Shown here piece after piece: positions 27,000 through 49,386 of a DNA stretch of 64,000 nt. The notes under the pieces are model-generated. The model was not told where the DNA came from. It did no database searches and saw only the letters and a program-made list of their open reading frames with translations. Both the position numbers and the translations under genes were made by a program. Origin of the DNA: Bacteroidia bacterium (GTDB lineage: Bacteria; Bacteroidota; Bacteroidia; J057). Every line of letters starts with the position of its first letter. Positions within the stretch are counted from its first letter, which is position 1. The stretch is taken from contig JAWPMV010000001.1 in assembly GCA_033391075.1 (NCBI GenBank), positions 6,076,001 to 6,140,000 of the forward strand, given 5' to 3'.

Positions 27000-27058
27000 G
27001 TGTTCTGGTGTTCTCGTGTTCCTTCCCAGAGCACCAGAACACATGAACACCAGAACAC
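27000..27058 (+). repeat. Octamer-repeat hairpin (GTGTTCTG units), probable terminator
   Basis: Left arm: GTGTTCTG, GTGTTCTC, GTGTTCCT in register at 27000-27023. Right arm, read as complement: cagaacac at 27035-27042, atgaacac at 27043-27050, cagaacac at 27051-27058. The outer 14 bp (27000-27013 and 27045-27058) pair perfectly. A short T-run follows at 27059, so it may act as the terminator of the GOGAT-like gene. It belongs to the same 8-bp-period family as the repeats at 47.9 and 49.3 kb. Confidence 0.75.
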
Positions 27059-27094
27059 TTTTACTTTTCGTATATTGCCTTTGCATTAGAAGAT

Positions 27095-28162
27095 ATGGCA
27101 AAGACACAGGCGTCACAAGAAACCTACTTGCATCACTTTTGCCCCGAATGTGGGGGTGAAATGGATTATAAAGGGGGGATTAAAAAATTCTCTTGTAGAG
27201 ACTGTAGATACGAACGCCCCCTTCAAAAGAATTCGGATCAGGTTGTCGATCGCCCCCTGGCTTCTAATGTCAATTTCAAAAAGTTTAGAAGAGGTATGGG
27301 CCAGGCACTTAAACTCAAGGAGTTTCAGTGCGGAGGCTGCAGTGCCTTTGTAGCTGTGCCTGAAGAGCAAGAATTGGAAATTTGCCCCTTTTGCGAAGGA
27401 ACGGAGCTGACAGAATCCAAGCGTTTGAATAAAGTGCTTGAGCCCAAGGATGTGATTCCCTTTACCATTCCCCTGGAAAGAGCACGAAAAATCCTCAGGA
27501 GATTTCTCTTCAAACGCAATTACCTCTTTCTCCCCAATTCCATACAGAAAACAACCCAAAGAGACCGACTAAGAGGGGTGTATCTTCCTGTGTTTTTTAT
27601 CGATGCCTTTACCCGATCTACCTGGAAAGGACAAGCCGGTCGAAAGGTAAAACAGAACAAGCAAGACAAAATTTTCTGGAATCCCAGCAATGGTTACTGG
27701 GAGCACACCTTTGATCGCATGTTTATAGAAGCATCCAAAGGAATCCAGATGAAGCATTTCAAAAACATTCAACCCTATGATAAATTTAAACTGGTTCCTT
27801 ATGATCCCCTTTATCTAAGGGACTTCATAACAGAAGTTTATCAGAAAGAAGAAATAGAAGGAATAAGAAATGCTGATAAGCAAATTGAAAATGAAGTAAA
27901 ACGGCAATCCGAGTACCGTAGAAGAGGAGATGTATTTAAAGATTTTAAATACAATCGGGAAAATATGCTGCTAGCTTTCCGCCATGTCCTTGTGCCTGTT
28001 TGGATCGCAACCTATCAATACCGAGGGCAAAACTTCCAGCTTATGATCAATGGACAGAAAGGTTATGTAGCTGGAGACAAACCTCTTTCTATGAGGAAGA
28101 TCTGGATTGCCATCATCACGGGCATCGTGAGTATCAGTTTGATGGTTTGGTTACTTTCCTAG
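27095..28162 (+). CDS. Double zinc-ribbon protein with C-terminal membrane anchor, function unknown
   Basis: 355 residues. Two zinc ribbons are visible: C16-x2-C19 with C34-x2-C37 (FCPECGG, FSCRDCRY) and C79-x2-C82 with C97-x2-C100 (FQCGGCS, ICPFCEG). A central domain (about 115-320) without a recognised signature contains aromatic-rich strands (YLPVFFIDAFTRSTW). One membrane helix lies at the very end (about residues 334-354), so the bulk probably faces the cytoplasm as a tail-anchored protein. The stop codon overlaps that of the convergent T9SS gene in a CTAG. Similar proteins are sometimes annotated as PriA-like because of the ribbons, which I do not support. Confidence 0.75.
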   Translation: MAKTQASQETYLHHFCPECGGEMDYKGGIKKFSCRDCRYERPLQKNSDQVVDRPLASNVNFKKFRRGMGQALKLKEFQCGGCSAFVAVPEEQELEICPFCEGTELTESKRLNKVLEPKDVIPFTIPLERARKILRRFLFKRNYLFLPNSIQKTTQRDRLRGVYLPVFFIDAFTRSTWKGQAGRKVKQNKQDKIFWNPSNGYWEHTFDRMFIEASKGIQMKHFKNIQPYDKFKLVPYDPLYLRDFITEVYQKEEIEGIRNADKQIENEVKRQSEYRRRGDVFKDFKYNRENMLLAFRHVLVPVWIATYQYRGQNFQLMINGQKGYVAGDKPLSMRKIWIAIITGIVSISLMVWLLS

Positions 28163-30525
28163 CGAATCAGGGTAATCGAACCTGAACTCTGAAAGACATT
28201 CCCACTAAAATCTTCATATTCGACCATATATACATAAACACCTTCTGGAGCGGGCCGGCCACTATTGGTTCCATCCCAAGCCTGATCGATATTATCCGTT
28301 ACAAAGATTTCATTGCCCCATCGATTATAAATTCGCAACTGAAAACGGCTGAAAAAGCTCCCCTTAATTTCAAAGAGGTCATTGATGCCATCTCCATTGG
28401 GGGTAAAGGCATTGGCTGCGAAAACACTAGGTTCGAAACTGATACATTGTTCCAAAGACCAGGCTTCGCTTCGACAGCTATCCTGATTCTCAGGAATCGC
28501 CTGTATCCGATAGCAGTAAAGCCCTCCTTGCTCTAAAGAAATATCGCGGTCTATCCACTCCAGATTCAAGCCGGGAGCCAGGTTACCAAGTATCGTATCC
28601 GAATCAGCGGTCCTCCGCCAAATCACGTAATTGGAAATGCCGTCAACCCATCCTGCATAGTCCCCCCAATTAATCGTAATCTCGAGTTCATCATCAGTTG
28701 CTTCCAGGGGAATACTACAATGCTGGCCCGTCAGGACCTCCTGATCACAAGCCGAAAGCAAACCCAGTTCATAACAATAGGATTCTGCCGCATCAATGGC
28801 TTCTGTATCTATCCAAGTGGTCACCATGGGATCAAAGATTTCCTCTACCAATTGGGAATTGCCATTCACAACTTTATACACACGATAGGCTCGAAAACTA
28901 CTTCCCAAATTTTCTCTCCAGCTAATCTCTATAGCTCCATTCGAAGCTGAGACAGCACAAATACCTGCTCCCGTAGCCGGTTCAGAACAAAAGGTCAAAC
29001 TCGGCGGTCCACTTTCAAGGTTTGGGCATTCATAGAAAATTTCCAGCTGATAACAATAGTTTAGCTGGTCAGCATTATTGGCCGATATATCGACAAAACT
29101 ATTGGCTATGGGATTGGCGATCTGAGCAATTTCTACAAATCCCGCCCCATCATCTCGTGAAATAGAGAAATAGGAAAATCCATTTTGCTGATCTGCCGTC
29201 AAGCCCACCCAATCCAATTGTATGGTTTGATTATCGATGACCTGAACGCAGTTAAATTCCGGCATGATTAATTCAGGTGCAATCGTCTGAAAATAAATCG
29301 TATCCCGAATCCGGTTAGGCGCCGGACAATCATTCTGATCCTCTACTTCAAAAATGAGGGAGTTTAGGGGAAAGTCGATAAAATCACAGCCGGGTGCCCA
29401 GCAAAACTGAACCAGGAGGGAATCTATCCCTATACTTTGTACTTGTATATCCCCGGGATCAGGCAAAGCCAGATGAGGGCCATCGAAACGAAAACTAATC
29501 GAATCACTCCCTATACCCGGTCCATTTTGATCCGAAACAATGAAAGAGAAACAACTTTCCTGATCGCGCTCAAAAAAGAGAGTGTCCCCACTGATCAAAT
29601 CCGTATCAGGAAGTTGAATGTTCGGCGGAAAGTTGATTGGACAATCGATCACATTCACCTGAATATCCCTTCTAATCACTCCTATTACTTGCCCATTCCT
29701 TCTTTCAGTTACCCGAAGAGAAAATACATACTGCCCCAGATTCTGAGGACTAACGGTTAGAACTCCTGTTTGTTGGTCTACTCTCAAAGCTGGACTTCCA
29801 TCCATCACATTGCTCAATCCATATCCTGGCAGCCAGGCAATGGGGAGAAAGGGAGGAGGAGGCACAACCGGTACCGGATCCATCTGAGAGCCTGCGGTAA
29901 ACGGAGTAACAATATCATAGGTCAATTCATCTCCATCCGCATCCGTCGCACTATGATCAAAGGAAAAGAGATCACTTCGACAGATATAAGTAGGCAGCTG
30001 ATTGGTAAAACTGGGAGAACTATTGCATAAAGCCGTATTGGGAATACGGGTATTTATCGCCATCCCAAACTCTCCAGGCTGTAAAATATTTTGGATGGTT
30101 TCATTTCGACAACACCTTCCCCATACCAATTCATAGCCCGATGTATTATCTCTAAGGCGGATAGTGGTCGTATATGTTCCCCGTGCATAACACAAATTTG
30201 CAGGAGGCGCAACACAGCTATCACTACCAGTCAGAGGTAGTACAAGGGTATCGGTCAAGGCAATAATTATCTCGGTTTCTAAAGAATTATTAAGTGCGTT
30301 GTATATCTGGATGGCTATTTCGGGGTCAAATGGAGTATTAGTAGGAAAGTCGATAGTAGGTTGGCAATCTCGGTAAACATTCAGGGTGATCTGATAGAGG
30401 TTAAAGCCCTGTTGATCTTTGCCCAGACAGGTATATTCCATATCTCCGCCTACCAAATGCTTCGCCTGGCTACTTAGGCACAGACCAAAGCATGCGAGAA
30501 TGAGTATGATCTTTTTTATTTCCAT
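28159..30525 (-). CDS. Large secreted protein with T9SS type B (gliding-motility-associated) C-terminal domain
   Basis: 788 residues from the ATG at 30525 (MEIKKIILILACFGLCLSSQ), a clear signal peptide. The frame opens 17 residues earlier without family support. The middle holds repeated beta-sandwich, fibronectin/cadherin-like segments (for instance DADGDELTYDIVTPF and QTGVLTVSPQNLGQYVFSL) and many Cys. The C-terminal ~85 residues carry the CHU_C/type B sorting signature: NAFTPNGDGINDLFEIKG, RIYNRWGNEIF and GTNSGRPAPEGVYVY. Export is expected through the type IX system to the cell surface or medium. Likely an adhesin or matrix protein; this is inference. Confidence 0.88.
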   Translation of the reverse strand: MEIKKIILILACFGLCLSSQAKHLVGGDMEYTCLGKDQQGFNLYQITLNVYRDCQPTIDFPTNTPFDPEIAIQIYNALNNSLETEIIIALTDTLVLPLTGSDSCVAPPANLCYARGTYTTTIRLRDNTSGYELVWGRCCRNETIQNILQPGEFGMAINTRIPNTALCNSSPSFTNQLPTYICRSDLFSFDHSATDADGDELTYDIVTPFTAGSQMDPVPVVPPPPFLPIAWLPGYGLSNVMDGSPALRVDQQTGVLTVSPQNLGQYVFSLRVTERRNGQVIGVIRRDIQVNVIDCPINFPPNIQLPDTDLISGDTLFFERDQESCFSFIVSDQNGPGIGSDSISFRFDGPHLALPDPGDIQVQSIGIDSLLVQFCWAPGCDFIDFPLNSLIFEVEDQNDCPAPNRIRDTIYFQTIAPELIMPEFNCVQVIDNQTIQLDWVGLTADQQNGFSYFSISRDDGAGFVEIAQIANPIANSFVDISANNADQLNYCYQLEIFYECPNLESGPPSLTFCSEPATGAGICAVSASNGAIEISWRENLGSSFRAYRVYKVVNGNSQLVEEIFDPMVTTWIDTEAIDAAESYCYELGLLSACDQEVLTGQHCSIPLEATDDELEITINWGDYAGWVDGISNYVIWRRTADSDTILGNLAPGLNLEWIDRDISLEQGGLYCYRIQAIPENQDSCRSEAWSLEQCISFEPSVFAANAFTPNGDGINDLFEIKGSFFSRFQLRIYNRWGNEIFVTDNIDQAWDGTNSGRPAPEGVYVYMVEYEDFSGNVFQSSGSITLIR

Positions 30526-30597
30526 GATATGCACGCAGGATATTTCCTGTCCATTTGTTTTTGTTTTACCTTGCACCTTAATAGCCCAGATAAGCTT

Positions 30598-32340
30598 ATG
30601 ACCCAGATGCAGTGGCTCTTTCGTCCCGGCTCTCCAGAAGAAGAAGTCAGAACCCTTGCTGAAAGTTTAAAAACCAGCCAGGTATTTCCCCTACCAATCG
30701 CGCAAATTCTTCTTCAAAGAAATATAAGCGATTTTTTGGCAGCAAGATCTTATTTCAAGCCAGACTTGAGCGAAATTCATGATCCCTATCTGCTTTGCGA
30801 TATGGATAAAGCAGTAGAGAGAATCCTCCTCGCCCGAAGCAATAACGAAAAAATATTGCTTTTTGGTGATTATGACGTAGATGGAACCACTGCCGTTACT
30901 TTATTGAGCCTCTTTTTCGAAAAATGGGGCTTTGATTTTGATTATTATATCCCGGATCGATATGGTGAAGGCTATGGAGTCTCTTATAAAGGGATAGATT
31001 ATGCCGAAAAAATTGGAGCCCGTCTGATCATTAGCCTGGATTGTGGGATTAAAGCTATCGAACAGGTTCGCTATGCGAGACTGAAAGAACTGGATTTCAT
31101 CATTTGTGACCACCATAAACCCGGGAACGAGCTGCCAGAAGCTCTCGCCATTCTGGATCCTATGCGCAGTGATTGTGCCTACCCCTACAAATACCTCACA
31201 GGATGCGGAGTGGGATTTAAACTGGCTCAGGCCCTTCATCCCAAACTTCAGGAAGCGGGATATAGCTGCAAAGGTATAGATCAGTCTCCACTCGACCTTT
31301 ATGGCGACCTCCTGACGCTGAGTATTGCCTGCGATATTGTGCCTGTTACGGGAGAAAATCGCTCCCTGGCTTATCACGGTTTGCAAAAGATTAGAAAAAA
31401 CCCGCTCAAAGGAATCTCTGCCATCATGGCCCAGGCTAAATATGAACGGGAATGGGATATCTCAGATTTGGTTTTCTTCATTGGCCCGAGGGTAAATGCA
31501 GCAGGCAGACTTTCTCATGCAAAAGAAGCAGTAGAAGTTTTGCTGGGAAAAAATGAAGCCCTCAAAAGTCTTGCGGAACAATTGCAGGTGTCCAATGAGG
31601 AGCGAAAAAACATGGACAGGGAAACCACTCAGGAAGCCCTGGAAATGATCTCACAGGACGAAACTTATCTCAAAAAATCCTCCACGGTTCTCTATCATCC
31701 CGAATGGCATAAAGGCATCATCGGAATTGTTGCTTCTCGTTTGATTGAACATCACTATCGACCTACAGTAATGCTTACTCGTTCAGAGGAAGGTACACTC
31801 GTAGGTTCTGCTCGTAGTGTAGCCGGTTTTGATTTGTACCAAAGTCTTTACGCATGTAAAGAGCATATTCTTCAGTTTGGAGGACATGCCTATGCTGCCG
31901 GTTTGAGCATTCGTGAAGAAGATTTTCCCCGCTTCTCAGCACAATTTGAAGAAGAAGTTGCCCGAACTCTTACACCCGAACAGAAAAGGCCCATTTTGTA
32001 TATCGATCATATGCTCGAATTTCCCCAAATTACCGATCGCTTTATCCGATTGATCAATAGAATGGCACCTTTTGGACCAGAAAATGAAAAACCGGTCTTC
32101 GCCACACGATCCGTAAAAGTGAGGCATGCAAAAATCCTAAAAGGAGAGCATGTAAAATTTGTATTGGAAAAAGATCGTTGTATGATCGAAGCCATCGGTT
32201 TCAATCTCGCAGCTAAATGGGAAAACATGGGTACCCAATTTTTACACATAGCATATCAACCTATTTTCAATACTTGGAAAAATAAAACACAAATAAATCT
32301 ACGACTAAAAGACATTAAGCATCCGGATGAAAATATCTAG
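30598..32340 (+). CDS. recJ: Single-stranded-DNA-specific exonuclease RecJ
   Basis: 580 residues from the ATG at 30598 (MTQMQWLFRPGSPEEEV). DHH phosphoesterase motifs are intact: DYDVDGTT (91-98), SLDCG near 147-151 and DHHKPG (171-176). The DHHA1 domain shows the GGHAYAAG motif. RecJ degrades 5' ssDNA ends in recombination and mismatch or base-excision repair. The frame extends to 30529, but those residues are not RecJ-like. The next gene starts inside its last codons. Confidence 0.96.
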   Translation: MTQMQWLFRPGSPEEEVRTLAESLKTSQVFPLPIAQILLQRNISDFLAARSYFKPDLSEIHDPYLLCDMDKAVERILLARSNNEKILLFGDYDVDGTTAVTLLSLFFEKWGFDFDYYIPDRYGEGYGVSYKGIDYAEKIGARLIISLDCGIKAIEQVRYARLKELDFIICDHHKPGNELPEALAILDPMRSDCAYPYKYLTGCGVGFKLAQALHPKLQEAGYSCKGIDQSPLDLYGDLLTLSIACDIVPVTGENRSLAYHGLQKIRKNPLKGISAIMAQAKYEREWDISDLVFFIGPRVNAAGRLSHAKEAVEVLLGKNEALKSLAEQLQVSNEERKNMDRETTQEALEMISQDETYLKKSSTVLYHPEWHKGIIGIVASRLIEHHYRPTVMLTRSEEGTLVGSARSVAGFDLYQSLYACKEHILQFGGHAYAAGLSIREEDFPRFSAQFEEEVARTLTPEQKRPILYIDHMLEFPQITDRFIRLINRMAPFGPENEKPVFATRSVKVRHAKILKGEHVKFVLEKDRCMIEAIGFNLAAKWENMGTQFLHIAYQPIFNTWKNKTQINLRLKDIKHPDENI

Positions 32341-34963
32341 AACACCGCTCCTCTACTTGCTTTGTATCGGAATCGGAGTCTTTTTCCCCACAGAAACTAC
32401 CCAGGCCCAGGCTTTGGACTGGAGCTTCGAAAATATCATCACCGACATTCAGGAATCCGGCGCCAATCCAGATGTGGTCATGGGTTCTGATGGTGATCTC
32501 CATGTATCCTACTGGCAGGCCGATGAAGATCGCCTGAAATATGGTCGTCGCGATGCAGCAAATGGAAATTGGGCTTTTGAGACTTTGGATGTGGGCGACA
32601 ACTTTCATGGCTTCAAATCAGCCATCGCACTGGATGATAATGGAAATGTACATATCGCCTATGTAAAAAGGGTTCAATCAAATGCTCAGATTCGCTACAT
32701 CACCAATGAGTCGGGCAGTTGGCAGGTCGAAATTCCGCTGCCTACCGAGCATATTGGGAAATACGGCATTGACCAGGAATTCCCCATTTTTGCCCAAACT
32801 TCTCTGGACATATTTTTTCAGGCAGATGGAAATCCCGTAATTATCTATTTTGATGGGAAAGTAAATACCCTCGGAAATTGTGGGCCCATAGTCAACCGGA
32901 CTTATCTGGATTATGATCTGGATATGAATATGCTGGTGAAACTCAATGACGGAAGCTGGGATCCTGCTCCTTTTGACAATATCCCGGACGAGAAAGGATT
33001 TGGATGTTTACTGGATGGTGACCGTTTTGGAGAATTTTGCCAGGTTTTGACGACCTCTGATAATCGTTTCTTTGGCCTGACCAATTCTTTACATAATCAT
33101 GATGTGCTCCTGTATTCCTCTAGCAATCTCATAAACTGGGAGGTAAATGCTATTGACTCTTCAGATAGATTTTTCAATACCGTCAATGAAAATCACTTCC
33201 GTGAAGGTTTTGAATTCATCCAGGCAGATTTGCTGGGAGATTCAATTATGAATGTCGTTTATACGGTTTCCAATCACTATGGAAATGGAGATGTATTCGG
33301 GCCCAGGCGTCCGATGTTTTTCACTCGTTTTCATCCAGACTCTATTGGCCAGGCCGGTTATAGCCCCTTTCATAGAGGAATCGGAGGCTCAGGACAATTT
33401 TATCGAAATTATGCCAGCGTAAAAGCCTTGAGTCCAGACAGTCTGTTTATTTCCTTTTTTGATTTAGATAATGGGCTTTTACAATTGGGAAGATCAATAG
33501 ATGGTGGACAAAACTGGCTGTATGAAACGATCAGCAATAGCCCAACAAATACCGGCACCCAGGTGCTCATAGACGGAGATAGCGTTAGGGTTCTACACTA
33601 TAATTCCTCAAGCGATCAATTGCTTTTGAGCTCAAGAGCTATAGATGGATCCAACTGGAGAGTTGAGAATGCTACCCGAAGTGAATTGAGAGGAAATATC
33701 CTTAGCAGTGAGGTAATCAGAAATGGAAATACAGATTCAAAATTTGTAGCCTATCTGGAAGACATTTCCGGAAGCTTTCAATATGCTTCCAATACTGGTT
33801 CGGGATGGAATTTCGAAGAAATCCTCTCGGATGCTTCAGGAATCATGGATATTAGCATGGAAATGGATGCGGCAAATAGTCCGCTTATTGTTTATGCAGA
33901 AGATAGCCTCGAACAAATCAGGATTGCATGGAATCAGAATGGATGGAATTCCAGATTCATCATTAGCAATACCCGAGCAAGAGACCTTGACTTCCAATTT
34001 ATAAATGGGCAATACCACATTGCATACTTCAACCTCAATACCGGCCATTTACATTATGTCACCTCCAATTCCCTCAATGGCCCCTGGAATATGACCGTAG
34101 TTGACAATAGTAGCAATATCATTGGCAGGGGATTGGATATGGATTTTGAAACAAATGGGACGATCCATATTTCTTATGTTGACGTAATCAATCCCAAAGT
34201 AAAGCATGCAACCCTCAGCCCGGGAGCCAGCTGGCAAATCGAAGACATTACCCAGGCCTTTAATTTCAATCCAAATTTCACCTCTATCGGTATCAATAGT
34301 TCAGATTTGACAAGTATTGCCTTTAAGGATGCCACGGCCAATGAGATTCAGATAGCTGAAAATGATGGCACAGGATGGAATATTAGCCGCGTTGCTGCTC
34401 AAAGTGGAAACCTCATCGGAAATCCTATGGAACTCCTACTGGATGATCAGGACAGGCCCTGGGTATTGTACAACATATCTGATATTCGGGATGAAATGGG
34501 CCTCAGGAGAAGAGATGAATTTGGGAATTGGAACCAGGTTTCAATCAATAATAATTCAGCAGAAATCGCCCGTAGTTTTGATCTGCATCTGCTAGGAGAA
34601 GATTTTTATATCATCGGGAAGAAAAATCAACTTTCGAATAACGGCCTCGGATTATTATTCGCTGAAAGAGGAGTAAAAACCAATCTCAAAGACCTCATTG
34701 AGCGTACCCAATTGAGCATTGCTCCAAATCCGGCAAAAGAGAGCATCCAAATCAGTTTTGAACTCGCAGCATCTCAGGCTTTTTCATTCGACTTATACAA
34801 CCTCAATGGACAATTCATTCACCCTTTGCAGGAGACATCTACTTTTAGCATTGGAAAACAGGAATTGAATTTGTCCTTGCCGAGTCTGGAAGCCGGCATT
34901 TATTTGCTGGTCATGAAAGGAGAAAAATATCAGATTCCCCATAAATTAGTCATAATGCCCTGA
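32327..34963 (+). CDS. Secreted beta-propeller-like protein with T9SS type A C-terminal sorting domain
   Basis: 878 residues with a signal peptide ([20 protein letters not shown], cut probably after TQAQA). The body is made of repeated strand motifs of the type [12 protein letters not shown], with at least one Asp-box (SIDGGQNW), as in sialidase-like propellers. The last ~75 residues are the type A sorting domain ([35 protein letters not shown]). No catalytic residues could be assigned, so the activity is unknown. It overlaps recJ by 14 bp, suggesting coupling despite the unrelated functions. Confidence 0.85.
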
Positions 34964-34992
34964 GCAAGATTAATTTACAAAGGAAATATTCC

Positions 34993-35028: not shown

Positions 35029-35049
35029 ATTATCTTAAAATCTTATAAT

Positions 35050-41500: not shown

Positions 41501-41574
41501 CGCAGGAACTCATTGCAACCCTGACGGCTTTATTGACCTTCGCTGTTCTCCTGAGAAATACTGCCAATAATTAA
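38515..41574 (+). CDS. Polysaccharide export outer-membrane protein with eight SLBB-type repeats
   Basis: 1019 residues. Signal peptide 1-26 (MDRYIAFSKIFIFGVLFIAL), a helical segment with two short hairpins (30-90), then the Poly_export domain (about 155-230, ENYIIGTGDAFNVTIWG). Eight SLBB units follow, each with a G-x-V-x-x-P-G-x-Y type strand: near residues 237, 317, 406, 498, 614, 716, 817 and 901. A Lys-rich linker (978-986) and a terminal membrane helix (about 997-1013) close it. Wza-type exporters usually have two or three SLBB units, so this is a very long channel or periplasmic tube. A Wzz-like gene follows after 6 bp. Confidence 0.87.
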   Translation: MDRYIAFSKIFIFGVLFIALQGVLQAQDQNAVAEILRKYNINPTEIPAENLTQIEARVQSLQEAGSSEEEIIAALRSEGLIPAVSQASDSSQTLSPVTPPILDSIKEEKQEVIQVKPLPKPSQPEKEAVNQIFGHEIFHDTTGAFIRAIPSTPPENYIIGTGDAFNVTIWGCSELSESLIVEEDGSVSRKYLGKVYLAGLKYAQAQKVLLDKYRRYFASCSQVEIFMGRSKRTITVNIAGEVERPGAYVINAATPAFNALFEAGGVKEKGSVRNIYIKRNGKTVQIVDIYEYLIGGEDKPLFLQNNDFLFVPVQDKIVRISGAVEREGLYELREDEQLKSLILFSGGLSFFARKERARIDRFELGEKNVFTFELEKHLGTNTPDYPLVEGDEVFIRSQNLRLRNYVGVRGSVRFPDNYQFQAGDRISDLLDRSGGLEEDALVGQAYIMRSQIGTYNLRYIPIDMPQVVAKNPNANIPLQNRDILYVFSNELLEDKPMIAIGGEVRSPGVFENANDLNLKTLLYLANGPKISANIHNIELMLVPEISDLHPTKIKPHIDQYDPSLETYRNKVQYSLRISIGENWQNNSQLDSIFLRPFNRIHIYSKYEFMQFEQVSIEGSVNAPGTYRLMEGMDLKDLIYQAKGVTAGSDRFEVELHSKVAISEKGLYGTKPTDKQIVRFSIDRNWESEEALENVSLDGIERVILISENTFAENTYIQIKGEIRNPGQYLLVPNMTLKDLIYQAGGLKLFADFQNIELTRIIELEEDGNIIPTPIVQQTISVNQDWQNDPSLAEVEINAFDQIFVRKNPDFEVQESVYLEGEVVSPGEYNKIRKFERVSSLVKRANGPTDLADIEGAQIFREGINGPISLKLKKALSNPGGKFDVPLLAGDKLLIPPLQNTVTISGNVLRPGITVMYEKGKTRYKYYVKKYAGGYAKRTLKRENTIAYADGSVRGTGRFFWKKFYPKVRQGSTIVVASKPEKKKKDKEGENRFKINTQELIATLTALLTFAVLLRNTANN

Positions 41575-41580
41575 TATACT

Positions 41581-42612
41581 GTGGCTCTTGAAGAATTAAA
41601 TGCCAGACTAGAGGTTTATAAGGCAAAGATAAACCGAAATCGACCCTTCATTATTGCGGTCTCCCTTATTCTGGGAATCCTTTTGGCGATCTACGCTTTT
41701 ACTGCGCCTGTATTTTATACAGCACATGCGAGTTTTCATCCTGAAACCGGCACAAATAATTCACCAAGTCTGGCAGGAAGTCCTCTATCTTTTCTACTTG
41801 GTTCCGGAGGATTGGATGGAGATGAAGCAGGTATGATGGAAGAGGTCTTGAAAAGCCGAAATCTAAGCGAAGAAGTAGTAAAAGATACCGTTTCTTTCGA
41901 AGGGGAAGAGAGATTGATTGCAGACCTGGTAATTGAGAAGTTTCCCAAAAGCATATCTCCTATCCAGCTAGCAAAACGCCTCTTGAGTAGTGGCGACGAA
42001 CGTTCCTATGCCAGTAAGATCATCCTGGCAGGAAGATTTGTGCGGGGAAGTGTAATCATCGAAAAGGAAGAAAATGGCTTCCTTACCATGGATCTCAGCT
42101 TTTCAGATGATTCCCTTACGGGTATATTGAGCAGTACTTATATTGAAAAGCTCAGTAATTATTATAGAAAGCAAAAAACAGAAAAAGCCCGTATCAATCT
42201 TGATTTTTTCACTGCTCGTGCAGACTCAATCAAAGGAGAATTGGATAATGCGGCACAGGCTCTCGCCCGATTCCAGGATCGCAACAAGGGTCTGGTCTTT
42301 TCCAGCAGAATGGTTTCGGCTAAAGAATTGGAAGTAAAGCTGGAGTATCTGAAAGAAATGTATATCACCCTGGTCACCAATCGTGAGCAAGCGGCCTCCC
42401 AACTACAAAGGGTAACTCCCATTATCCAGGTATTAGACGAACCCATTCCTCCCTTTATCCTATCTAAAAAGAATCCCATCCTCTTTGCCCTCATAGGATT
42501 GATTCTGGGATTGATCTTTACTATCGGATGGTTGAGTCGTAAGTTACTCTGGCAGGATTTGATGTCTTACGTCAAATCCAGTCTGGAAAATCCTCCTAAA
42601 GAGGAAGATTAA
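41581..42612 (+). CDS. Wzz-like chain-length determinant protein
   Basis: 343 residues from a GTG start (MALEELNARLEVYKAKINRN). Two membrane helices (about 22-42 and 296-317) enclose a long periplasmic helical domain, the layout of Wzz/PCP proteins. No tyrosine kinase domain is attached. Such proteins set polymer length and contact the Wza-type exporter. The 6-bp gap to the SLBB gene shows they form one transport unit. Other capsule or exopolysaccharide genes (wzx, wzy, transferases) are not adjacent. Confidence 0.8.
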   Translation: MALEELNARLEVYKAKINRNRPFIIAVSLILGILLAIYAFTAPVFYTAHASFHPETGTNNSPSLAGSPLSFLLGSGGLDGDEAGMMEEVLKSRNLSEEVVKDTVSFEGEERLIADLVIEKFPKSISPIQLAKRLLSSGDERSYASKIILAGRFVRGSVIIEKEENGFLTMDLSFSDDSLTGILSSTYIEKLSNYYRKQKTEKARINLDFFTARADSIKGELDNAAQALARFQDRNKGLVFSSRMVSAKELEVKLEYLKEMYITLVTNREQAASQLQRVTPIIQVLDEPIPPFILSKKNPILFALIGLILGLIFTIGWLSRKLLWQDLMSYVKSSLENPPKEED

Positions 42613-42619
42613 TTAGCCC

Positions 42620-45301
42620 TTAGGCTCCTATTCCTTTTTTCTGTAAAATTCTTTGACCCCAGTGAGAAATGGCTTTCTCAAGGTCTTCCAGCTTAAAGGG
42701 TTTGCTGATATAGTCATCCATTCCTGCACTTAGGTATTGTTCACGAACCCCTGCCATAGCATTTGCAGTCATCGCGATAATCACAGGACGTTTATCATTG
42801 CCATAGGTTTCGATAATCTCCTGGGTAGCGCTTAAGCCGTCCAGTTCGGGCATTTGGATATCCATAAAAATGAGGTCAAAGCCGCTATCTTTGAGCATAT
42901 CTACTGCCTCTCTTCCATTATCTGCCAACTCAATATCAAAACCCATCTTCTCCAGGATACCTTCTATCACGGTTTGGTTAATCATATTATCCTCTGCAAC
43001 CATAATTCGCAGGGGAAATCTTTCGCCCAACATCTTATCAAATCCGGTATCAACCTTAGGCTGTTCTCTTTTTTCAGCTTCCCTATCAATGATACCCTGG
43101 ATAGTAAACTTGAAGGTCGAACCTAAGCCTTCTTTACTTTCCACATGAATGTCTCCATGCATAAGGTGAACCAGCTTTCTCGAGATCGCCAATCCTAAAC
43201 CTACACCATCAAACTTACGGGAAACAGAGTTGTCAACTTGCTGGAAGGATTCAAAAATGCTTTCCTGAGCATCTTTGGGAATACCTATACCTGTATCTTT
43301 TACTGCAAAGTTTATTTCACAAATTTCTCCGTGCTCAAAATTCATCCGATTGGCATCTGAGAGCCAGACCAAAATATCGATACTACCTTCAGTAGTAAAT
43401 TTCAGGGCATTGTTGACCAAATTGACCAGGACCTGTCTCAAACGATTGGGATCAGTCCGTATAAAACGAGGAACTTCTTTTCCTAAATGAAAGGCCAGTT
43501 TCAGGCCTTTTTCTTTAGCTCCATTCTCAAAAAGTGCTGTAACCTCTGCCAGGAGTCCTCTTACCTCAAATGTTTTGATTTCCAGGTCAAGTTTACCAGC
43601 CTCTACACGAGAATAATCCAGGATATCATTCAGGATAGAAAGTAGGTTATTGCTACTAGTCGCAATTGTCCCCACATAATCCTTTTGCTGAGGATTCAGG
43701 TAGGTGTCTTTCAATAAGCTCGTCATCCCAATAATTCCGTTCATCGGGGTGCGAATCTCATGAGACATGGTAGCGAGGAAGTTGGATTTGGCAACCGAAG
43801 CAGCTTCTGCCTGGTGCTTGGCCTCTTCCAGGCTCTTATTGATTTTATGCAGTTGTTGATTCTGCATATGGATCACCTTATTTCGATTGGCCAACTGATC
43901 GTTGGTTTTTTGCTTGGAGCGGGTTTGTCGGTAAAGCACTACTGCCAAGAGGACAATGAGTGCCAATACGATAAAACTCGCATATAGCAGAATGGTCAGA
44001 TTCTGGGTTTGCAAGCTGGCTTTCTCGCTTGCACCATCTGCTATGAGTCGCTTTTGGCGTTCATCATATACCTCCTTGGTTTTTTCCAGGGCAAACTCTT
44101 TTTGCGCATTACTCAATGAGTCATTGAGCTCAGTATAAAGCTTATAGTAATCAAAGGCATTACTAAAATCCTGCGACGCATTGAAGATATCACTCATGAG
44201 TTCGTAGATATCTTTCCGCATCGTATCGCGGGGAGTTCGCTGTGCAAGTGAAAGCGCATTACTCAGGACACTGATTGCGTCCTCATATTCCCCATTTCGA
44301 TAATAGGCATTGGCCATATTGAACAGAGGGGGGACCGTAGAGTCCTGGCTAAGCAGTTGCTGATCCAGGGCAATACCATAATGCCGTAAGGCCCGATCAT
44401 AATTCCCTTGAGCCATGTACACATCACCAAAGCTGCTATTGATTTCCGTCAACAGCCGCTCGTCTTTAATTTCCTGTATATACACATAGGCCTGATCCAA
44501 ATAGGTTTCGGCCTTATTCATACTGTCTATTTCCAAATAAAGCATCCCCATATCCTGGTAGAGCTCTCCCAACTGGAATTGATCCTGTACATCCCGAAGA
44601 ATCTTTTCCGCATGCTCATAGGTCTCTATCGCTCGCACATAATTATCAGAGGCCCAGTAAACCTTGGCTACTCCAGTAAGAGCAGTCACCAACAAGCTAC
44701 TATCCTTAGCTCTTTTGCTGATATCTATGGCTGCAAAGAATCGGTTATATGCGTCTTCGTACAAACGAAGTTTTTCATACATATAACCCATTTTGATATT
44801 GGCTTCAGCTACAGCGATAGAATCATTTTCTCCCTCCGCCAGCTTTATTGCTTCTTCATAAAATGGAATGGCTTCGTCATACCGATGCAATTCTACACAG
44901 GTTTTTACCACCCGATTGATAGCTACGCGAATCTTGCTGGGAACACCCTCTCTTTGTCTAAGGGAAAAAGCTCTTTTGTAAAATGTAAGGGCCAGTCCGG
45001 GGTCTTCCAGCAAATGGTGGATATTCCCTAAAGACATTAGGGCCGATCCTTGCAGATCGATATCGCCAGAACTTAAAGAGATTTTGTAGCCATACTGCGC
45101 GATGGCCATTGCATCTGTACGTTTCCCTTTGGCAGCATATTGATTGGCTAGCTTGCGAACTTCGCTCACCTGCTCCTTAAAGGGAAGACCTTTGATCTCT
45201 CCTTCTATGCTATCTACCACTTGAGAAAACGAGGGAATGTTGAGGACTAAAATCCCCAAAATTAGTGAGAAGACAATACGGTATGCCTTTCTTATCTGCA
45301 T
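42620..45301 (-). CDS. TPR-containing hybrid histidine kinase/response regulator
   Basis: 893 residues from the ATG at 45301; an in-frame TTG four codons earlier is less likely. Order: signal or membrane segment (about 8-26), six or more TPR units in the periplasm (about 40-400), membrane helix (437-457), coiled coil (465-505), HisKA with H514 in [14 protein letters not shown], HATPase with N-box NLVNNALKF and G-boxes DTGIGIP and GVGLGLAI, then a receiver domain with D814 ([12 protein letters not shown]) and Lys867 (ISKPFK). Phosphorelay kinase; the signal is unknown. It is convergent with the polysaccharide export pair (7-bp gap). No separate regulator gene is next to it. Confidence 0.92.
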
Positions 45302-45404
45302 GCGGACGTTCAATTAACCAGCATTAAGACAACATTCGAGCCATAATCCCCTTTTGCCACATCGAATGCGCCTACCTATCCAACACCCGAAGATAGACAA
45401 TTTA

Positions 45405-45433
45405 ACCCAACTTATAAAAGATATAAGTTGGGT
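45405..45433 (-). terminator. Hairpin downstream of the efflux operon
   Basis: ACCCAACTTATA (45405-45416) pairs perfectly with TATAAGTTGGGT (45422-45433) around a 5-nt loop. It lies about 45 bp after the adaptor-protein stop on the minus strand. The following T-tract is weak (TTAAATT), so termination strength is uncertain. A second TTGGGTCAG copy sits at about 45458, possibly a partial duplicate of the arm. Confidence 0.55.
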
Positions 45434-45477
45434 CAGGATAATAAACAGCTGTCGCTGCTTGGGTCAGATTCGTAGAT

Positions 45478-46596
45478 CTAGTTAGTAGTTTTTTCTTTTT
45501 TATCGTCTTCGCGGATAGGGTTGGGGTTCTTAACCTTTGATTGGTCATCTATGCCTGACAATAGCTCGACATTTATCCCATCCGATATCCCTGTTTTTAT
45601 CGCGATCTTCTCAAATTCCTGAGGAGAAGTCTCAACCTCCACAAACGTACTGTCGCCTTCAAAAAGCAAGAGGGCTTCGGATAAGGCTAGCACACTGTCC
45701 TTTCTATCAAGAACGATATCTGCATTTGCACTATATCCAGCTCTGATGAATTGATCTTCCTTCAGATTGATGGCAGCACGTATTTTAAACTGTATCGCTC
45801 CATTATCCTCAACTCCTTTAGGGGAAATATGCTCTAGTTTAGCATTAAAAGTTTCTCCCTCAATCGCAGCAATGGTAAGTTCGAGGTCCATATTATTCTT
45901 GAGTTTTCCAACCTCAGACTCATCAACAGTACCTTCGAAAATCATTTCTTCCATATTAGCAACGATGGCAATGGTTGTTCCATCATTGAAGGTATTGGAT
46001 TCAATTACCGAATTACCTTCTTCTATGGGGACATCCAGAACCATCCCGGCAATGGTTGCTCTTACATTGGTATTAGCCGTACGTCCTGAGCGCTTGGTTG
46101 ATCCTTTTCGGATCAGCTCCAGGTTGTCCTGAGCAGCGCCCAATTCTTCTTCTGCATTGTCATAGGCCAGTTGAAATTCCTGAAAACGAGCAGCAGCAAT
46201 GACTCCCTCCTTGTAGAGAGGCTCATTTCGCTCATAGTCCTGCTTGGCATTTTTCAGGGTAATTTTGGCCCTGCGAACCCGGTTCTCAGCATTGTTCAGA
46301 CTCACCATATCAGGTACGATCTGAACAGTTGCAATCAGGTCTCCTTTCTTCACCTCATCCCCGGCTTCTACATAAAGTTTGCTGATTAAACCAGAAACCT
46401 GAGGCTTGATTTCAATTTCTTTTCTGGGAATGACAGAACCCGTAGCTACCGTTTTTTCAACGATATCCGTAACAAAGGCTTGCTCTGTCTTAAACATGAC
46501 CGGTTTCTCCTGGTCTTTTTTCACCAGGTAAAATCCTCCTCCGATAAAACTCAGGAGAATTACTCCCAGGATGATTAAGGTACTTGTTCTACTCAT
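45478..46596 (-). CDS. Periplasmic adaptor protein of a MacAB-type efflux system
   Basis: 372 residues. N-terminal membrane anchor (about 6-24), then a lipoyl/barrel-sandwich half (VIPRKEIEIKPQVSGLISKL), a coiled-coil hairpin (about 105-165) and the second half (NVRATIAGMVLDVPIEEGNS), followed by beta-barrel domains. It links an inner-membrane ABC transporter to an outer-membrane channel. It is the last gene of the ATPase-permease-permease-adaptor cluster; no TolC homologue is in the window. Confidence 0.9.
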   Translation of the reverse strand: MSRTSTLIILGVILLSFIGGGFYLVKKDQEKPVMFKTEQAFVTDIVEKTVATGSVIPRKEIEIKPQVSGLISKLYVEAGDEVKKGDLIATVQIVPDMVSLNNAENRVRRAKITLKNAKQDYERNEPLYKEGVIAAARFQEFQLAYDNAEEELGAAQDNLELIRKGSTKRSGRTANTNVRATIAGMVLDVPIEEGNSVIESNTFNDGTTIAIVANMEEMIFEGTVDESEVGKLKNNMDLELTIAAIEGETFNAKLEHISPKGVEDNGAIQFKIRAAINLKEDQFIRAGYSANADIVLDRKDSVLALSEALLLFEGDSTFVEVETSPQEFEKIAIKTGISDGINVELLSGIDDQSKVKNPNPIREDDKKEKTTN

Positions 46597-46626
46597 TGTA
46601 TGATTCAGTCTTGTATGGTGTCTTAT

Positions 46627-47889
46627 TTATTCTGTTCTGAGTGCTTCTATGGGTTTTATGCGCACAGCTCTCGAAGCGGGTAACAAACCAGCAAAGGCTC
46701 CTGCAATAATCAGGATAAAGAGGGCATTGAGCATAAGGTCAATTTCCACATATGGCGGGGCAAACATCCCAAGATCGGCCCCCGATTCGGTGAGGGCAAA
46801 ACTCACCAACTCCAACAAACCTACTCCCAATACCAGGCCGGTATATCCAGCTATAGTAGTCAGGAAAACAGCTTCTGTCATAATTTGGCTAATGATTCCC
46901 CAGGGCTTGGCCCCAATAGCTCTTCGAATTCCGATTTCTTTGGTACGCTCCTTTACATTGATCAACATGATATTGCTGATGCCAATGGCTCCAGCTAAAA
47001 GGGTGAAAAATCCCACAATCCAGCTGATGGCATTGATCCCGAAAAACACATTTTGAATTTCCTTCAACTCTTCTTCCAAATTGAAATGACCAAAGCCTCT
47101 TTCATCTAAAGGAGAGACTTTATGCCTTCTTTTTAAGAGGGCGATCATTTTTTCTTCTGCAATCGAAGCGGGGGTATCATCTTGAGAAACTACCGAAAAC
47201 CAGCTGATGCGATTCCCGTAATTGAAGGTCTTTTGAAAAGTGGTGAAAGGGGTATAAATTCGCTGCGTTTCTCTTTCTCCTCTTTCGCCTGTTTGGTTAG
47301 AGGAAAAAAGGCCTACCACCTGGAAATAGGTATTATTAATGGCTATCTGCTTACCGATCGGATCCTCATCCTCTTCAAACATCTGAACGCGCACTCCTTC
47401 TCCTATCACACAAATCTTACGACTTCTCTTCAGATCTACATGATTGAGAAAGCGGCCTTTATCCATATTAAATTTTTCGGCAAACCTTATCTCCGGATAA
47501 TCACCAGTTACCTCGAAAGCTCCGGCTTTCCCATTATAGGTCACATTATTTCCCCCTCTATAACCTCCCAGTTGATTTCTAGGACAAACATACTTGGCTT
47601 CTTTAACCAAGGCTTTTACTGCAAAATAATCATCATTGGTCATCCGGATTCTTCTCCCCGGTTGAAATCCGGCATAAGGCTCAGTAGTAACACTTCCCCA
47701 AAGGAAAAAACTGTTACTTGCCCGATCAGACATATCTGTTTTTACTCCTTTCTCCAGGCCATTCCCAAAACCAATCATAAGGATCAGCATGAGGATGCCC
47801 CAAAACACACCCAGTGCCGTCAGCACGGTCCGCAATGGCTTCTTGGCCAATGCCTGCAATATTTCCTGCCATTTATCGAGGTCAAACAT
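46627..47889 (-). CDS. MacB-like ABC transporter permease (second copy)
   Basis: 420 residues. Membrane helix near 20-40, large periplasmic MacB_PCD domain (about 45-255), then three helices of the FtsX domain (about 290-410) with NIMLINVKERTKEIGIRRAIGA. No ATPase domain is fused. Similar in design to the permease at 47997 (both begin MFDLDKWQEI), so the two likely arose by duplication and form a heterodimer served by the ATPase at 49387. The C-terminus RAVRIKPIEALRTE is family-typical. Confidence 0.92.
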   Translation of the reverse strand: MFDLDKWQEILQALAKKPLRTVLTALGVFWGILMLILMIGFGNGLEKGVKTDMSDRASNSFFLWGSVTTEPYAGFQPGRRIRMTNDDYFAVKALVKEAKYVCPRNQLGGYRGGNNVTYNGKAGAFEVTGDYPEIRFAEKFNMDKGRFLNHVDLKRSRKICVIGEGVRVQMFEEDEDPIGKQIAINNTYFQVVGLFSSNQTGERGERETQRIYTPFTTFQKTFNYGNRISWFSVVSQDDTPASIAEEKMIALLKRRHKVSPLDERGFGHFNLEEELKEIQNVFFGINAISWIVGFFTLLAGAIGISNIMLINVKERTKEIGIRRAIGAKPWGIISQIMTEAVFLTTIAGYTGLVLGVGLLELVSFALTESGADLGMFAPPYVEIDLMLNALFILIIAGAFAGLLPASRAVRIKPIEALRTE

Positions 47890-47897
47890 AAGGGAGA

Positions 47898-47921
47898 GTG
47901 TTAGGGTGTTATAGTCTTATC
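47898..47921 (+). repeat. Short octamer-repeat array (GTGTTAGG family)
   Basis: In the 107-bp gap between the two permease genes: GTGTTAGG (47898-47905), GTGTTATA (47906-47913), GTCTTATC (47914-47921), all in 8-bp register. The 15-bp word covering 47897-47911 is repeated exactly at 49301-49315. Another small hairpin, AAAGTTT/AAACTTT, lies further on in the gap. Confidence 0.65.
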
Positions 47922-47996
47922 GCGCGCAGGTTTATCATAATTATTCTGGTGTAGTTCAAAGTTTCTAAAGCCAAACTTTAACACACGCGCACATTC

Positions 47997-49280
47997 CTAC
48001 TCATATCTCAAGGCTTCTATAGGTCTTATTCTTGCTGCTCTTCTTGCTGGGACCCAACCTGCGAGGGCTCCTGCGATGATCAAAAAGACCGTAGCTTGTA
48101 TAGCGACTGTCAGATCAACCTCTGGGTTGTAAAATATGCCCAGATTATCCATACTTACTCCTTCCATCATACCAAAGGATTGAAAGAAGTCAAGCCAAAT
48201 GCCGGAACTGAATACTTCCAGGAGTACCACCCCACACAATAATCCGATATAACCCGCAAGGGCTGTAACGAGTATGGCTTCCTGCATAATGAGGGAGACT
48301 ACCGTTTTGGGAGTTGCTCCCAGGGCTTTTCGCACTCCGATCTCTTTTGTTCGCTCTTTCACGACAATGATCATGATATTGCTCACTCCAATGATACCTG
48401 CTAGCAAAGTACCAGATGCGATAAACCAGATAAATACCCGAATAGCCGTCATCACTCCTTTGAATTCCTGATAGCCTTCTACCCGGTTTGAGATTCGCAT
48501 AGCTCCTCGATCATCTGGTGAAAAACGATGCTTCTTGGATAATTTCTTCAGTACCTGTTCTTCTATAATGAGGCTTTCCTCAACCGTTACATCTCCCATC
48601 GTCAGGAGCAGTTGATGAATCCGTCTTTTTCCATTGAATGCCTTCTGGGCAGTAGTAATAGGTAGATAAATCACTTCTTCCTCTTCCCCATCTCTACCTT
48701 CTTCTATAAATACTCCAACTACCTTAAAAGCAATGCCATTTACTTCTATAGATTTGCCAATAGGGTTTTCTTTTTTGAAAAGGCCTTCAGCTGCTTTTTT
48801 CCCAATGGCTGCTACCTTTCTATGTTCGGTCAGATCGGCCTCATTGATAAAGCGACCTTCTGCAACCAGAGAATTTTCCAATATCTGGTGATCCGGATGT
48901 ACGGCACGAATAGGATAATCTCCTGAGTTGGTTTTGTAGTTAACGATTTGGATACCGCCCAGGTAAAATCTCCCGGTGATGTGTTCCACTCCTTCTATGG
49001 CCTCTTTTATCTCTTCATAATCATCATTGGTCAGGCGAATTCTTCTTCCGGGTTGAAGACCAGCATGAGGTTTTTGGGTGACTCCCGGGAAAATGCGGAG
49101 ACTATTGATCGCATCTCCCGACATTTCCAGCTCCACTCCATTTTCCAGTCCCTTTCCAGAGCCGAGCAGGATGATCAGCATGAATATTCCCCAGCCCACA
49201 CAGAAGCCTGTGAGGAAAGTCCGGAGTTTATTTTGCCGGATCGTGGTGAAAATTTCCTGCCATTTATCTAAATCGAACAT
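47997..49280 (-). CDS. MacB-like ABC transporter permease (first copy)
   Basis: 427 residues with the same plan as its neighbour: first helix about 20-40, periplasmic domain (about 45-265), three C-terminal helices with NIMIIVVKERTKEIGVRKAL. The N-terminus MFDLDKWQEIFTTIRQNKLR and C-terminus ARIRPIEALRYE mirror the second permease. It is flanked on both sides by gaps holding the GTGTTnnn octamer repeats. Confidence 0.92.
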   Translation of the reverse strand: MFDLDKWQEIFTTIRQNKLRTFLTGFCVGWGIFMLIILLGSGKGLENGVELEMSGDAINSLRIFPGVTQKPHAGLQPGRRIRLTNDDYEEIKEAIEGVEHITGRFYLGGIQIVNYKTNSGDYPIRAVHPDHQILENSLVAEGRFINEADLTEHRKVAAIGKKAAEGLFKKENPIGKSIEVNGIAFKVVGVFIEEGRDGEEEEVIYLPITTAQKAFNGKRRIHQLLLTMGDVTVEESLIIEEQVLKKLSKKHRFSPDDRGAMRISNRVEGYQEFKGVMTAIRVFIWFIASGTLLAGIIGVSNIMIIVVKERTKEIGVRKALGATPKTVVSLIMQEAILVTALAGYIGLLCGVVLLEVFSSGIWLDFFQSFGMMEGVSMDNLGIFYNPEVDLTVAIQATVFLIIAGALAGWVPARRAARIRPIEALRYE

Positions 49281-49285
49281 TTGAC

Positions 49286-49341
49286 GTGTTGAAGTTTTGT
49301 AGTGTTAGGGTGTTAGCGTTTTTGTGTGTTAGAGTGAATCA
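49286..49341 (+). repeat. Octamer-repeat array, six to seven units in register
   Basis: Consecutive 8-bp units: GTGTTGAA (49286), GTTTTGTA (49294), GTGTTAGG (49302), GTGTTAGC (49310), GTTTTTGT (49318), GTGTTAGA (49326), GTGAATCA (49334). An inverted CCCTAACAC at 49359-49367 can pair with GTGTTAGGG at 49302-49310. It lies in the 106-bp gap between the ATPase gene and the first permease gene. Confidence 0.75.
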
Positions 49342-49386
49342 ATAATTTAACTGGTATACCCTAACACGCATGCACACAAATACTGA

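Follow-up and report, generated by a model that had tools for sequence, protein, structure and literature searches.

Inward-facing arrays of a GT-anchored octamer occupy intergenic gaps in a Bacteroidia genome and may form 3′-end stem-loops

The genome of this Bacteroidia bacterium carries a family of short tandem octamer arrays that lie between genes and pair inward, with GTGTT units at the left edge of a gap and AACAC units at the right. This facing arrangement, the main feature of the family, had been missed in an earlier note on a 64,000-nucleotide stretch of the genome (the window). Genome-wide, inward pairs outnumbered outward pairs by 89 to 1, counting overlapping registers of a single element separately, with 0 for a reversed control, and, among the 71 array loci described below, those with exactly two arrays were inward in 28 cases and outward in 0. 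The typical element has two facing arms of about 3–4 octamers each, with the consensus GT[G/A/T][T/C][T/G]NNN, separated by a loop that is short and variable, and whole elements measure 55–96 bp (23 paired elements). Our preferred, though tentative, reading is that these are lineage-specific intergenic palindromic repeats, REP/BIME-like in kind, which may work as stem-loops at the 3′ ends of genes.

A strict pattern of three GTGTTNNN units matched 243 times in the 9.49-Mb genome, compared with 4 matches for the reversed pattern. This control is distinct from shuffled intergenic DNA, and a test based on word frequencies led to the same result. In a 1.62-Mb sample (1.624 Mb, partly picked around known matches, which biases densities, so that comparisons were kept within it), GTGTT at period 8 stood 170-fold above expectation, the top-ranking excess among all 5-mer and period combinations with at least 25 pairs. 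When arrays were required to have two or more exact GTGTT cores, and genes were called by a custom hexamer model with start codons extended, none of the 71 array loci fell inside a called gene. The proposal in the earlier note, a repeat family that extends across the genome in excess of chance and is limited to gaps, is thus borne out, and the outcome that the note named as refuting, a lack of excess elsewhere in the genome, did not occur.

All three arrays that had been reported in the window, near 27, 47 and 49 kb, were found in place, and the window holds 11 three-unit matches with up to 3 mismatches, a number that none of 100 dinucleotide shuffles (mean 1.06) reached. At the first site, a plus-strand left arm of subfamily A octamers (GTGTTCTG GTGTTCTC GTGTTCCT; 27000–27023), 4 nt from the stop codon of a glutamate-synthase-domain gene (25022–26995), faces a minus-strand right arm (CAGAGCAC CAGAACAC ATGAACAC CAGAACAC; 27027–27058), in which the three complementary AACAC units described before are accompanied by a fourth facing unit with the variant core AGCAC. 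The hairpin proposed at 27000–27058 fits the predicted folding of the gap (−34.5 kcal/mol, z −6.1), which is dominated by arm-arm pairing, and a T-rich, terminator-like tail (TTTTACTTTTC; 27059–27069, plus strand) lies on its 3′ side.

The plus-strand array at 47898–47921 (GTGTTAGG GTGTTATA GTCTTATC) had been credited with three units and holds two exact GTGTT cores, its third being a variant; it lies 8 nt from the start codon of a permease gene (46627–47889), upstream of it on the minus strand. At 49286–49333 (plus strand) there are six octamers (GTGTTGAA GTTTTGTA GTGTTAGG GTGTTAGC GTTTTTGT GTGTTAGA), four with exact GTGTT cores and two with GTTTT, whereas the seventh that had been suggested (GTGAATCA) is doubtful. 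With such variation in the core at both sites, the 47- and 49-kb versions differ from the 27-kb version beyond the variable bases, contrary to the original description. Both gaps also contain facing AACAC units absent from that description: a lone minus-strand copy at 47980–47984, close to the opposite edge of the 47-kb gap, whose right side is degenerate, and the minus-strand copy ACCCTAACAC at 49358–49367, a perfect complement of 49302–49311 with AACAC at 49363–49367. The 15-bp word at 47897–47911 does have its only second copy in the window at 49301–49315, the two flanking an FtsX/MacB permease gene (47997–49280, minus strand), and 5 nt separate the 49286–49333 array from the start codon of that gene, the array being on the upstream side in minus-strand terms.

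By their last three bases, the octamers fall into three subfamilies: A, C[T/A]N; B, [G/A/T]T[A/G]; and C, [A/T/G]GN. The two arms of an element belonged to the same subfamily in 23 of 29 cases (shuffle mean 9.9); under a looser rule, at least one label common to both arms, the figure was 39 of 40 (shuffle mean 19.1), this set being the 40 distinct loci listed from the whole-genome search, five of which are also in the 1.624-Mb sample. A subfamily B motif sits within a subfamily A pair at 24421, and the elements at 457509 and 627917 are mixed A/B.

Array calls depend on exact cores and subfamily labels are drawn from the variable bases, and because these define arrays and subfamilies, conservation at core and label positions is biased, except in middle units, which the definition leaves unselected. 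There, the first two bases were G in 66/66 and T in 64/66, an invariant GT, compared with G in 39/66 at base 3 (p = 9e-8), and neighbouring units agreed at bases 6–8 with frequencies of 0.58, 0.71 and 0.41. GT also continued in register one more unit inward (0.60 versus a background of 0.05). This pattern, with its strict 8-bp register, invariant GT and degenerate remainder, keeps alive the idea, raised in the earlier note, of a candidate binding array, in which a protein that binds DNA or RNA, with a footprint of 8 bases on GT/AC, would treat the inward pair as a two-sided gene-end site. Also in its favour, one gap followed across sister species keeps its GTGTT cores (in genomes G118 and G413, with two units in G418) but varies in the loop and in the final three bases of the units. 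We nevertheless consider such binding unlikely; against it, 8 bp is no helical repeat, and the three subfamilies would demand either one tolerant reader or three readers.

The arrays are placed close to gene ends: in 35 of 59 cases a stop codon lay no more than 10 nt from the array start, compared with 5.3 expected at random, while 7 of 46 were near a start codon (4.3 expected). Among gaps of at least 40 bp, arrays were present in 18/114 convergent, 43/544 codirectional and 7/169 divergent gaps; the frequency was higher in convergent than in divergent gaps (p = 0.001), and the difference between codirectional and divergent gaps was not significant (p = 0.12). Both arrays of the MacB operon adjoin start codons inside an apparent operon, and the placement at stop codons may perhaps reflect just the coding border. 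Arrays did not cluster significantly in neighbouring gaps (8 adjacent pairs versus 5.1 expected, p = 0.13).

Array-containing gaps of 60–135 nt (n = 26) had a median folding z of −4.4, with 22 of 26 below −2, compared with a median of −1.4 and 23 below −2 in 60 control gaps taken from 250. The 47-kb gap (z −1.65) showed no clear advantage over shuffles. A terminator function, suggested in the earlier note, fits the 27-kb site, with its hairpin and T-rich tail; across the family, however, an A/T-rich tail on the 3′ side was not significantly enriched (9/33 versus 3/30, p = 0.11). Canonical terminators were found in 1 of 9 short convergent gaps with an array and in 23 of 49 without (p = 0.067), and also in 11 of 68 array gaps. 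The 3′ arm, in transcript terms, was no richer in wobble-type core variants (10/120 versus 13/95 units, p = 0.27). Pairing between the two arms of one element was no better than after exchange of arms within a subfamily (p = 0.80; p = 0.19, 0.52 and 0.59 at three arm lengths for the 40 loci listed), so that locus-specific compensation is not seen, and a hairpin kept by such compensation is unsupported. Searches of Rfam gave no match above the gathering score in the window; five sub-threshold matches to the 27-kb hairpin, the best being mir-1540 at 37.2 bits against a cut-off of 90, are taken as chance likeness of long hairpins.

Under the reading that we favour, the transcript of the upstream gene would in most cases close with a copy folded as a stem-loop, which could end or insulate transcription or protect the 3′ end, and a single copy between convergent genes could act for both. 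In its favour are the excess across the genome, the confinement to gaps, the inward pairs of matching subfamily, the position at stop codons and the strong predicted folding; against it are the lack of locus-specific compensation and of strand asymmetry, the canonical terminators in some array gaps, the weak folding of the 47-kb gap and the arrays beside start codons in the MacB operon. Comparable 3′-end roles have been proposed for REP/BIME elements.

How the copies arose can be approached by comparing them. Two pairs of elements aligned over about 93–101 bp with 77–81% identity (6288865/6508649 and 6036701/7166534), and no near-identical pair occurred among the alignments listed, the 25 longest of 1313. 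Loops of the same subfamily had a mean best score of 0.14 per base, compared with 0.01 for shuffled loops (best 0.32; identical = 1), a similarity inflated by leftover units at loop edges. At 27 flank pairs, no target-site duplication was detected (mean longest match 3.33 versus 3.24 shuffled, p = 0.32), in a test for which element ends are fuzzy. The spread of the units as copies, as envisaged earlier, is therefore weakly supported. MITE- or REPIN-like mobile elements, whose arms would be transposase binding sites, could account for the two aligned pairs, for part of the loop similarity and for the nested and mixed A/B elements, and yet appear improbable given the lack of near-identical pairs and of direct duplications in these comparisons, and given the surroundings of the one Y1 transposase gene found. 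Within the 3.3 kb covered around that gene, the one Y1_Tnp match in the genome, no array adjoins it, there is none in the 1.5 kb covered on its 5′ side, and a short pair lies about 0.9 kb downstream; a RAYT/REP origin was accordingly rejected. A plasmid collection yielded no match to the 27-kb element.

The family is lineage-specific, with a strict array in 0 of 12 same-family genomes. The permease-permease gap, 107 bp here, is about 20–30 bp in four relatives (G001, G003, G004 and G006), an estimate based on where matches end, with the DNA itself also consulted for G001 and G004. In 100-kb samples, two of four relatives, G002 and G010, had other arrays with 6–8-bp units, and the MacB gap of G002 is filled with GAGAGCA and CGAAACC units; none of period 6–8 was listed for G003 or G006. 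Arrays in G002 and G010 did not significantly follow the same orientation rule (13 for, 9 against, p = 0.52), a count affected by poor gene calls that leaves out 6 arrays within called genes and 7 lacking a called gene on one side. The lineage specificity, the shorter gaps and other units in relatives, and the absence of per-locus compensation in the arm-swap tests speak for a mostly neutral intergenic satellite. Its units would expand by slippage, halted by coding sequence or by a promoter or leader that is needed, and hairpin-assisted template switching would supply the inverted partner; gaps would then look filled, and stop codons would look like anchors. This is a serious rival that we consider possible, if rather doubtful. 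Uneven conservation within the unit counts against neutrality, because a neutral array should decay evenly, and the 89-to-1 orientation and the matching of subfamilies require an extra cause.

Across the class, 28 of 395 genomes, this one (G000) included, matched the three-unit pattern, and about 20, judged by eye, matched its reversed control, so that single matches mean little; G118 (23 matches), G291 (24) and G392 (42) stood out. Among the matches listed, four-unit arrays also occur in the cultured Bacteroidota Pseudochryseolinea flava and Splendidivirga corallicola. G118 has a small gene flanked by two array gaps, and the outer genes are adjacent in 13 of 29 sister-species loci. Of these 13, G418 retains two GTGTT units and part of the small gene as a remnant, G413 has an array in a gap of 82 bp, and the remaining 11 lack an array, the gap in G381 being 1 bp. 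This pattern makes gene loss as likely as insertion, and cassette insertion in G118 was set aside. An inward two-plus-two pattern with a spacer of 12–42 had no match in 36 genomes of the G118 genus, G118 included, because the G118 pairs inspected have longer loops.

Among published repeats, the closest kind are the heptamers GGGAATC and GGGGA(C/T)T of Xanthomonas and Nostoc (Rehm et al. 2015, PMC4692102), which form inward, 'convergent' pairs, 70 and 75 in two xanthomonads and few in Nostoc. The Xanthomonas arrays share with ours short intergenic units (a preference for four there, 3–4 here), a position closer to the 5′-side ORF regardless of ORF orientation (84 of 105 here), inward pairing, rarity between divergent genes (here clear against convergent gaps alone), and drift in length and sequence among related genomes. 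Unlike those G-tract heptamers, the unit here is an octamer with an invariant GT and a drifting remainder, its arms fall into three matched subfamilies, and its host belongs to the Bacteroidota, a group unmentioned in the available part of PMC4692102. None of 105 arrays had G-quadruplex potential (four G3 tracts), so the quadruplex idea is inapplicable here.

Other families offer partial likenesses. Direct TAACTGA repeats of Beggiatoaceae, Cyanobacteria and five Bacteroidetes (MacGregor 2015, PMC4679880) are likewise intergenic, patchy and near start or stop codons, with shorter, repeat-free gaps in some relatives, but they consist of a fixed heptamer in one orientation, mostly directly upstream of start codons, and one 'indirect repeat' is the sole hint of paired inward arms in the part of the account covered. 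REP/BIME elements (Di Nocera et al. 2013, PMC3733652) are palindromes of 20–40 bp that carry a GTAG or CGTC tag. They resemble ours in being numerous, intergenic and often in facing pairs, found chiefly in convergent or codirectional gaps and on the downstream side of genes, a location matched by the gap frequencies given above; they differ in that our arms are tandem octamers without the terminal tag, and no array-flanked RAYT was found. GTAG here is a junction of subfamily B units, as seen by eye in listings and alignments, and not an end tag. BrickBuilt of Porphyromonas gingivalis, a MITE/minisatellite (Klein et al. 2015, PMC4596501), is also intergenic, from the Bacteroidota, and combines tandem and inverted repeats, but has 23-nt units within a MITE with leader and tail subunits. 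RbpB of Bacteroides was rejected as a reader, its top motif being 41 nt and no octamer being named in the available part of PMC11697453.

Overall, the layout resembles that of known intergenic repeats, but with its three subfamilies and its GT-anchored unit of 8 bases the family appears to be a new variant. The core of integron attC sites resembles GTTAGG/CCTAAC; such sites were dismissed, as the half-site order here is reversed and the arms are tandem.

It is conceivable, if quite unlikely, that the arrays are gene-end marks at which a dedicated factor touches GT/AC every eight bases and a two-sided complex sets transcript ends. If so, repeat 'dialects' would change by drift from lineage to lineage, with GTGTTNNN here and other short units in relatives, and the quadruplex explanation given for the Xanthomonas repeats would be one special case. 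The Xanthomonas-type layout recurs here with another unit length and without four G-tracts, and the same layout on a different unit points to a more general cause of such arrays, for which the three subfamilies and the invariant GT provide a handle for separating RNA structure, a binding protein and a mutational process.

The tandem 8-bp arrays with a GTGTT core (AACAC on the opposite strand) reported in the earlier note are present in the sequence at all three sites it named, although the unit counts need adjustment. At 27 kb, three octamers, the first unit lying 4 nt from a stop codon, face four on the opposite strand rather than the three proposed; the array from 47898, read as three units, comprises two exact units and one variant; and that from 49286, given as six to seven, has six, of which two carry GTTTT as their core. 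The 47-kb and 49-kb sites share a 15-bp word without mismatch, and these are its two occurrences in the window. Both of these gaps, which border MacB-operon permease genes (46627–47889 and 47997–49280, minus strand), also contain an AACAC copy in facing orientation close to the opposite edge. Elsewhere in the window, degenerate tandem repeats (6373–6620, periods 9–57) lie within a reading frame (6125–7084, minus strand).

These arrays are genuine members of a lineage-specific repeat family that extends across the genome and has a strict geometry. A relaxed three-unit pattern occurred 11 times in the window compared to 1.06 in shuffles, and a strict pattern 243 times in the whole genome compared to 4 for the reversed control. 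When all 5-mers were scanned at periods 5 to 30 in a 1.624-Mb sample, partly chosen around known matches, GTGTT at period 8 ranked first (146 pairs versus 0.9 expected, 170-fold), the next places going to GTGTT at periods 16 and 24 and to TGTTC, a word that overlaps it; among words listed, with at least 25 pairs, the best unrelated one reached only 6-fold. The earlier note would have been refuted by the lack of an excess elsewhere in the genome; the genome and scan results show such an excess.

When two exact cores separated by 16 bp were the sole criterion for an array, the unit between them was free of selection bias. Among 66 arrays without overlap, position 1 of this unit was G in 66 and position 2 was T in 64, but position 3 was G in just 39 (p = 9e-8), with positions 4 and 5 retained at 0.76 and 0.79; because of this per-position conservation, the unit is better written GTNNNNNN, with GTGTT preferred. 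For bases 6–8, agreement from one unit to the next was 0.58, 0.71 and 0.41, compared to 0.32 between different arrays. GT continued in register for about one further unit inward (0.60, background 0.05), with little outward (0.12).

Counting arrays with at least two exact cores, the sample held 105 at 71 loci, none inside called genes, with four octamers in 34, three in 33, two in 29 and more in 9. Array order was '+-' at 28 loci, a single array at 40, '+--' at two, '-+-' at one and '-+' at none, so that loci with exactly two arrays carry GTGTT on the left and AACAC on the right. Across the whole genome, a two-plus-two pattern matched 89 times inward, once outward and never in the reversed control, overlapping registers of a single element being tallied separately. 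The last three bases of the octamer define three subfamilies (A, B and C), and in the sample the two arms had the majority label in common in 23 of 29 cases (shuffling gave 9.9); in a second set of 40 loci, five of them also in the sample, at least one label was shared in 39 (19.1 by shuffling). The 23 same-subfamily paired elements span 55–96 bp, with loops of 3–45 bases. At 24421, a motif of subfamily B is enclosed by a pair of subfamily A.

Of 59 arrays outwardly neighbouring a gene 3′ end, 35 start no more than 10 nt from the stop codon, compared to 5.3 under random placement (2000 trials, maximum 13); the figure for start codons was 7 of 46 versus 4.3. The MacB-operon arrays are exceptions, with start codons 5 and 8 nt away. 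Canonical terminators within 120 nt after a stop begin at a median of 26 nt (10 of 126 within 10 nt), and arrays therefore tend to sit closer to stop codons. Among sample gaps of at least 40 bp, arrays occupied 18 of the 114 convergent ones, 43 of the 544 codirectional and 7 of the 169 divergent; the convergent share differed from the divergent (p = 0.001) and codirectional (p = 0.012) shares, with no significant difference between the latter two (p = 0.12). On the source contig, a second dispersed, GATGGGCTCTGCAGGGCC-like repeat adjoins some arrays (near 269124, 493747, 494180 and 7259181), and a repeat of the form CTGTCATTGCGAGCCTGTACTA...GCGAAGCAATCTCC, which seems to be a separate palindromic family, shares gaps starting at 7190431 and 7199384.

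Folding of 26 array gaps of 60–135 nt gave a median z of −4.4, with 22 below −2, compared to −1.4 and 23 of 60 for controls (60 taken from 250); the window gaps scored −6.1 (27-kb), −2.6 (49-kb) and −1.65 (47-kb). Own arms paired no better than arms swapped within the subfamily. A hairpin under selection as RNA should show wobble and U-tail asymmetries, but these were absent or not significant, so that hairpin potential is demonstrated for subfamilies and not for individual loci. The main rival to a transcribed stem-loop is a largely neutral origin of the arrays by slippage, which we consider somewhat less likely. A canonical terminator was found in 1 of 9 short convergent gaps with an array and 23 of 49 without (p = 0.067); both occurred together in 11 of 68 array gaps.

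The strict pattern was absent from 12 same-family genomes. The MacB-operon permease-permease gap, 107 bp in the source genome, measures roughly 20–30 bp in G001, G003, G004 and G006 (estimated from match ends, for G001 and G004 also from DNA), and is filled by other heptamers in G002 (GAGAGCA, then CGAAACC) and by CATTCAC-like units in G007. In 100-kb samples, 6–8-bp arrays built from other words were abundant in G002 and G010, and the listings for G003 and G006 contained none of such period. In L281:1–113 (G010) and other G002 and G010 stretches, hexamers, heptamers and octamers of other sequence form dense arrays that are mostly intergenic; among them is GTTTAGG, the plant telomere unit, in 16 copies. 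Units of GTGTTCAGGTGTTAATGTGTT type, perhaps a separate repeat family, occur in several species of family f10 (G023, G069, G137, G167, G196 and G223).

Four-unit arrays elsewhere are, among the matches listed, mostly from Bacteroidota. The source genome also belongs there, as its window proteins show: a T9SS sorting domain and an EF-G2 of Bacteroidota type score above cut-off. More than half of 80 matches listed bear Bacteroidota names, and about 20, judged by eye and some from the same genome, are Saprospiraceae or Saprospirales; inward pairs occur among the matches listed, for example in L130, L138, L200, L216 and L222. In the G118 genus, arrays occupy one orthologous gap in both G118 and G413, with two units there in G418, and in this single case the GTGTT cores are retained and other bases changed, the neighbouring gene being about 79% identical between G118 and G413. 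A binding array, a reading that such retention favours, ranks after neutral slippage and appears improbable. Arrays were absent from 11 other G118 sisters with the same gene order (the G381 gap is 1 bp), and G413 had no further strict arrays besides the shared gap. A small G118 gene between two array gaps (L225:4488–4856) persists as a remnant in G418 and is lacking at most of the loci compared in sister species.

Loops within a subfamily had a mean best score of 0.14 per base versus 0.01 shuffled (best 0.32, identical being 1), partly because leftover units remain at loop edges, and among the 25 longest of 1313 alignments two element pairs reached 77% and 81% over about 100 bp. Judged from these sequence similarities, the elements probably share descent to some extent. 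Neither the loop comparison nor these 25 alignments revealed recent copies, and a mobile element, ranked after a binding array, is a decidedly unlikely explanation.

Our search, covering part of the literature, found no title or abstract naming such octamer arrays. In the portion of Rehm et al. 2015 (PMC4692102) consulted, Xanthomonas GGGAATC heptamers have the same layout: they prefer four units, form inward pairs (70 and 75 in two genomes), are few between divergent genes and lie nearer to the ORF on their 5′ side in any ORF orientation, as do the octamer arrays, nearer to the 5′-side gene in 84 of 105 cases. G-quadruplexes are discussed there for the heptamers; four G3 tracts occurred in 0 of 105 octamer arrays. 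TAACTGA heptamers, also present in five Bacteroidetes, lie mostly upstream of start codons, according to the part of MacGregor 2015 (PMC4679880) used. REP elements, as described in PMC3733652, share location and facing pairs with the arrays but are tagged palindromes; the tests for such a tag and for a RAYT were both negative here. We file the octamer family as a variant of intergenic paired short-unit repeats, novel as a variant. Its most likely role, put forward tentatively, would be that of a transcribed 3′-end stem-loop acting like REP/BIME elements.
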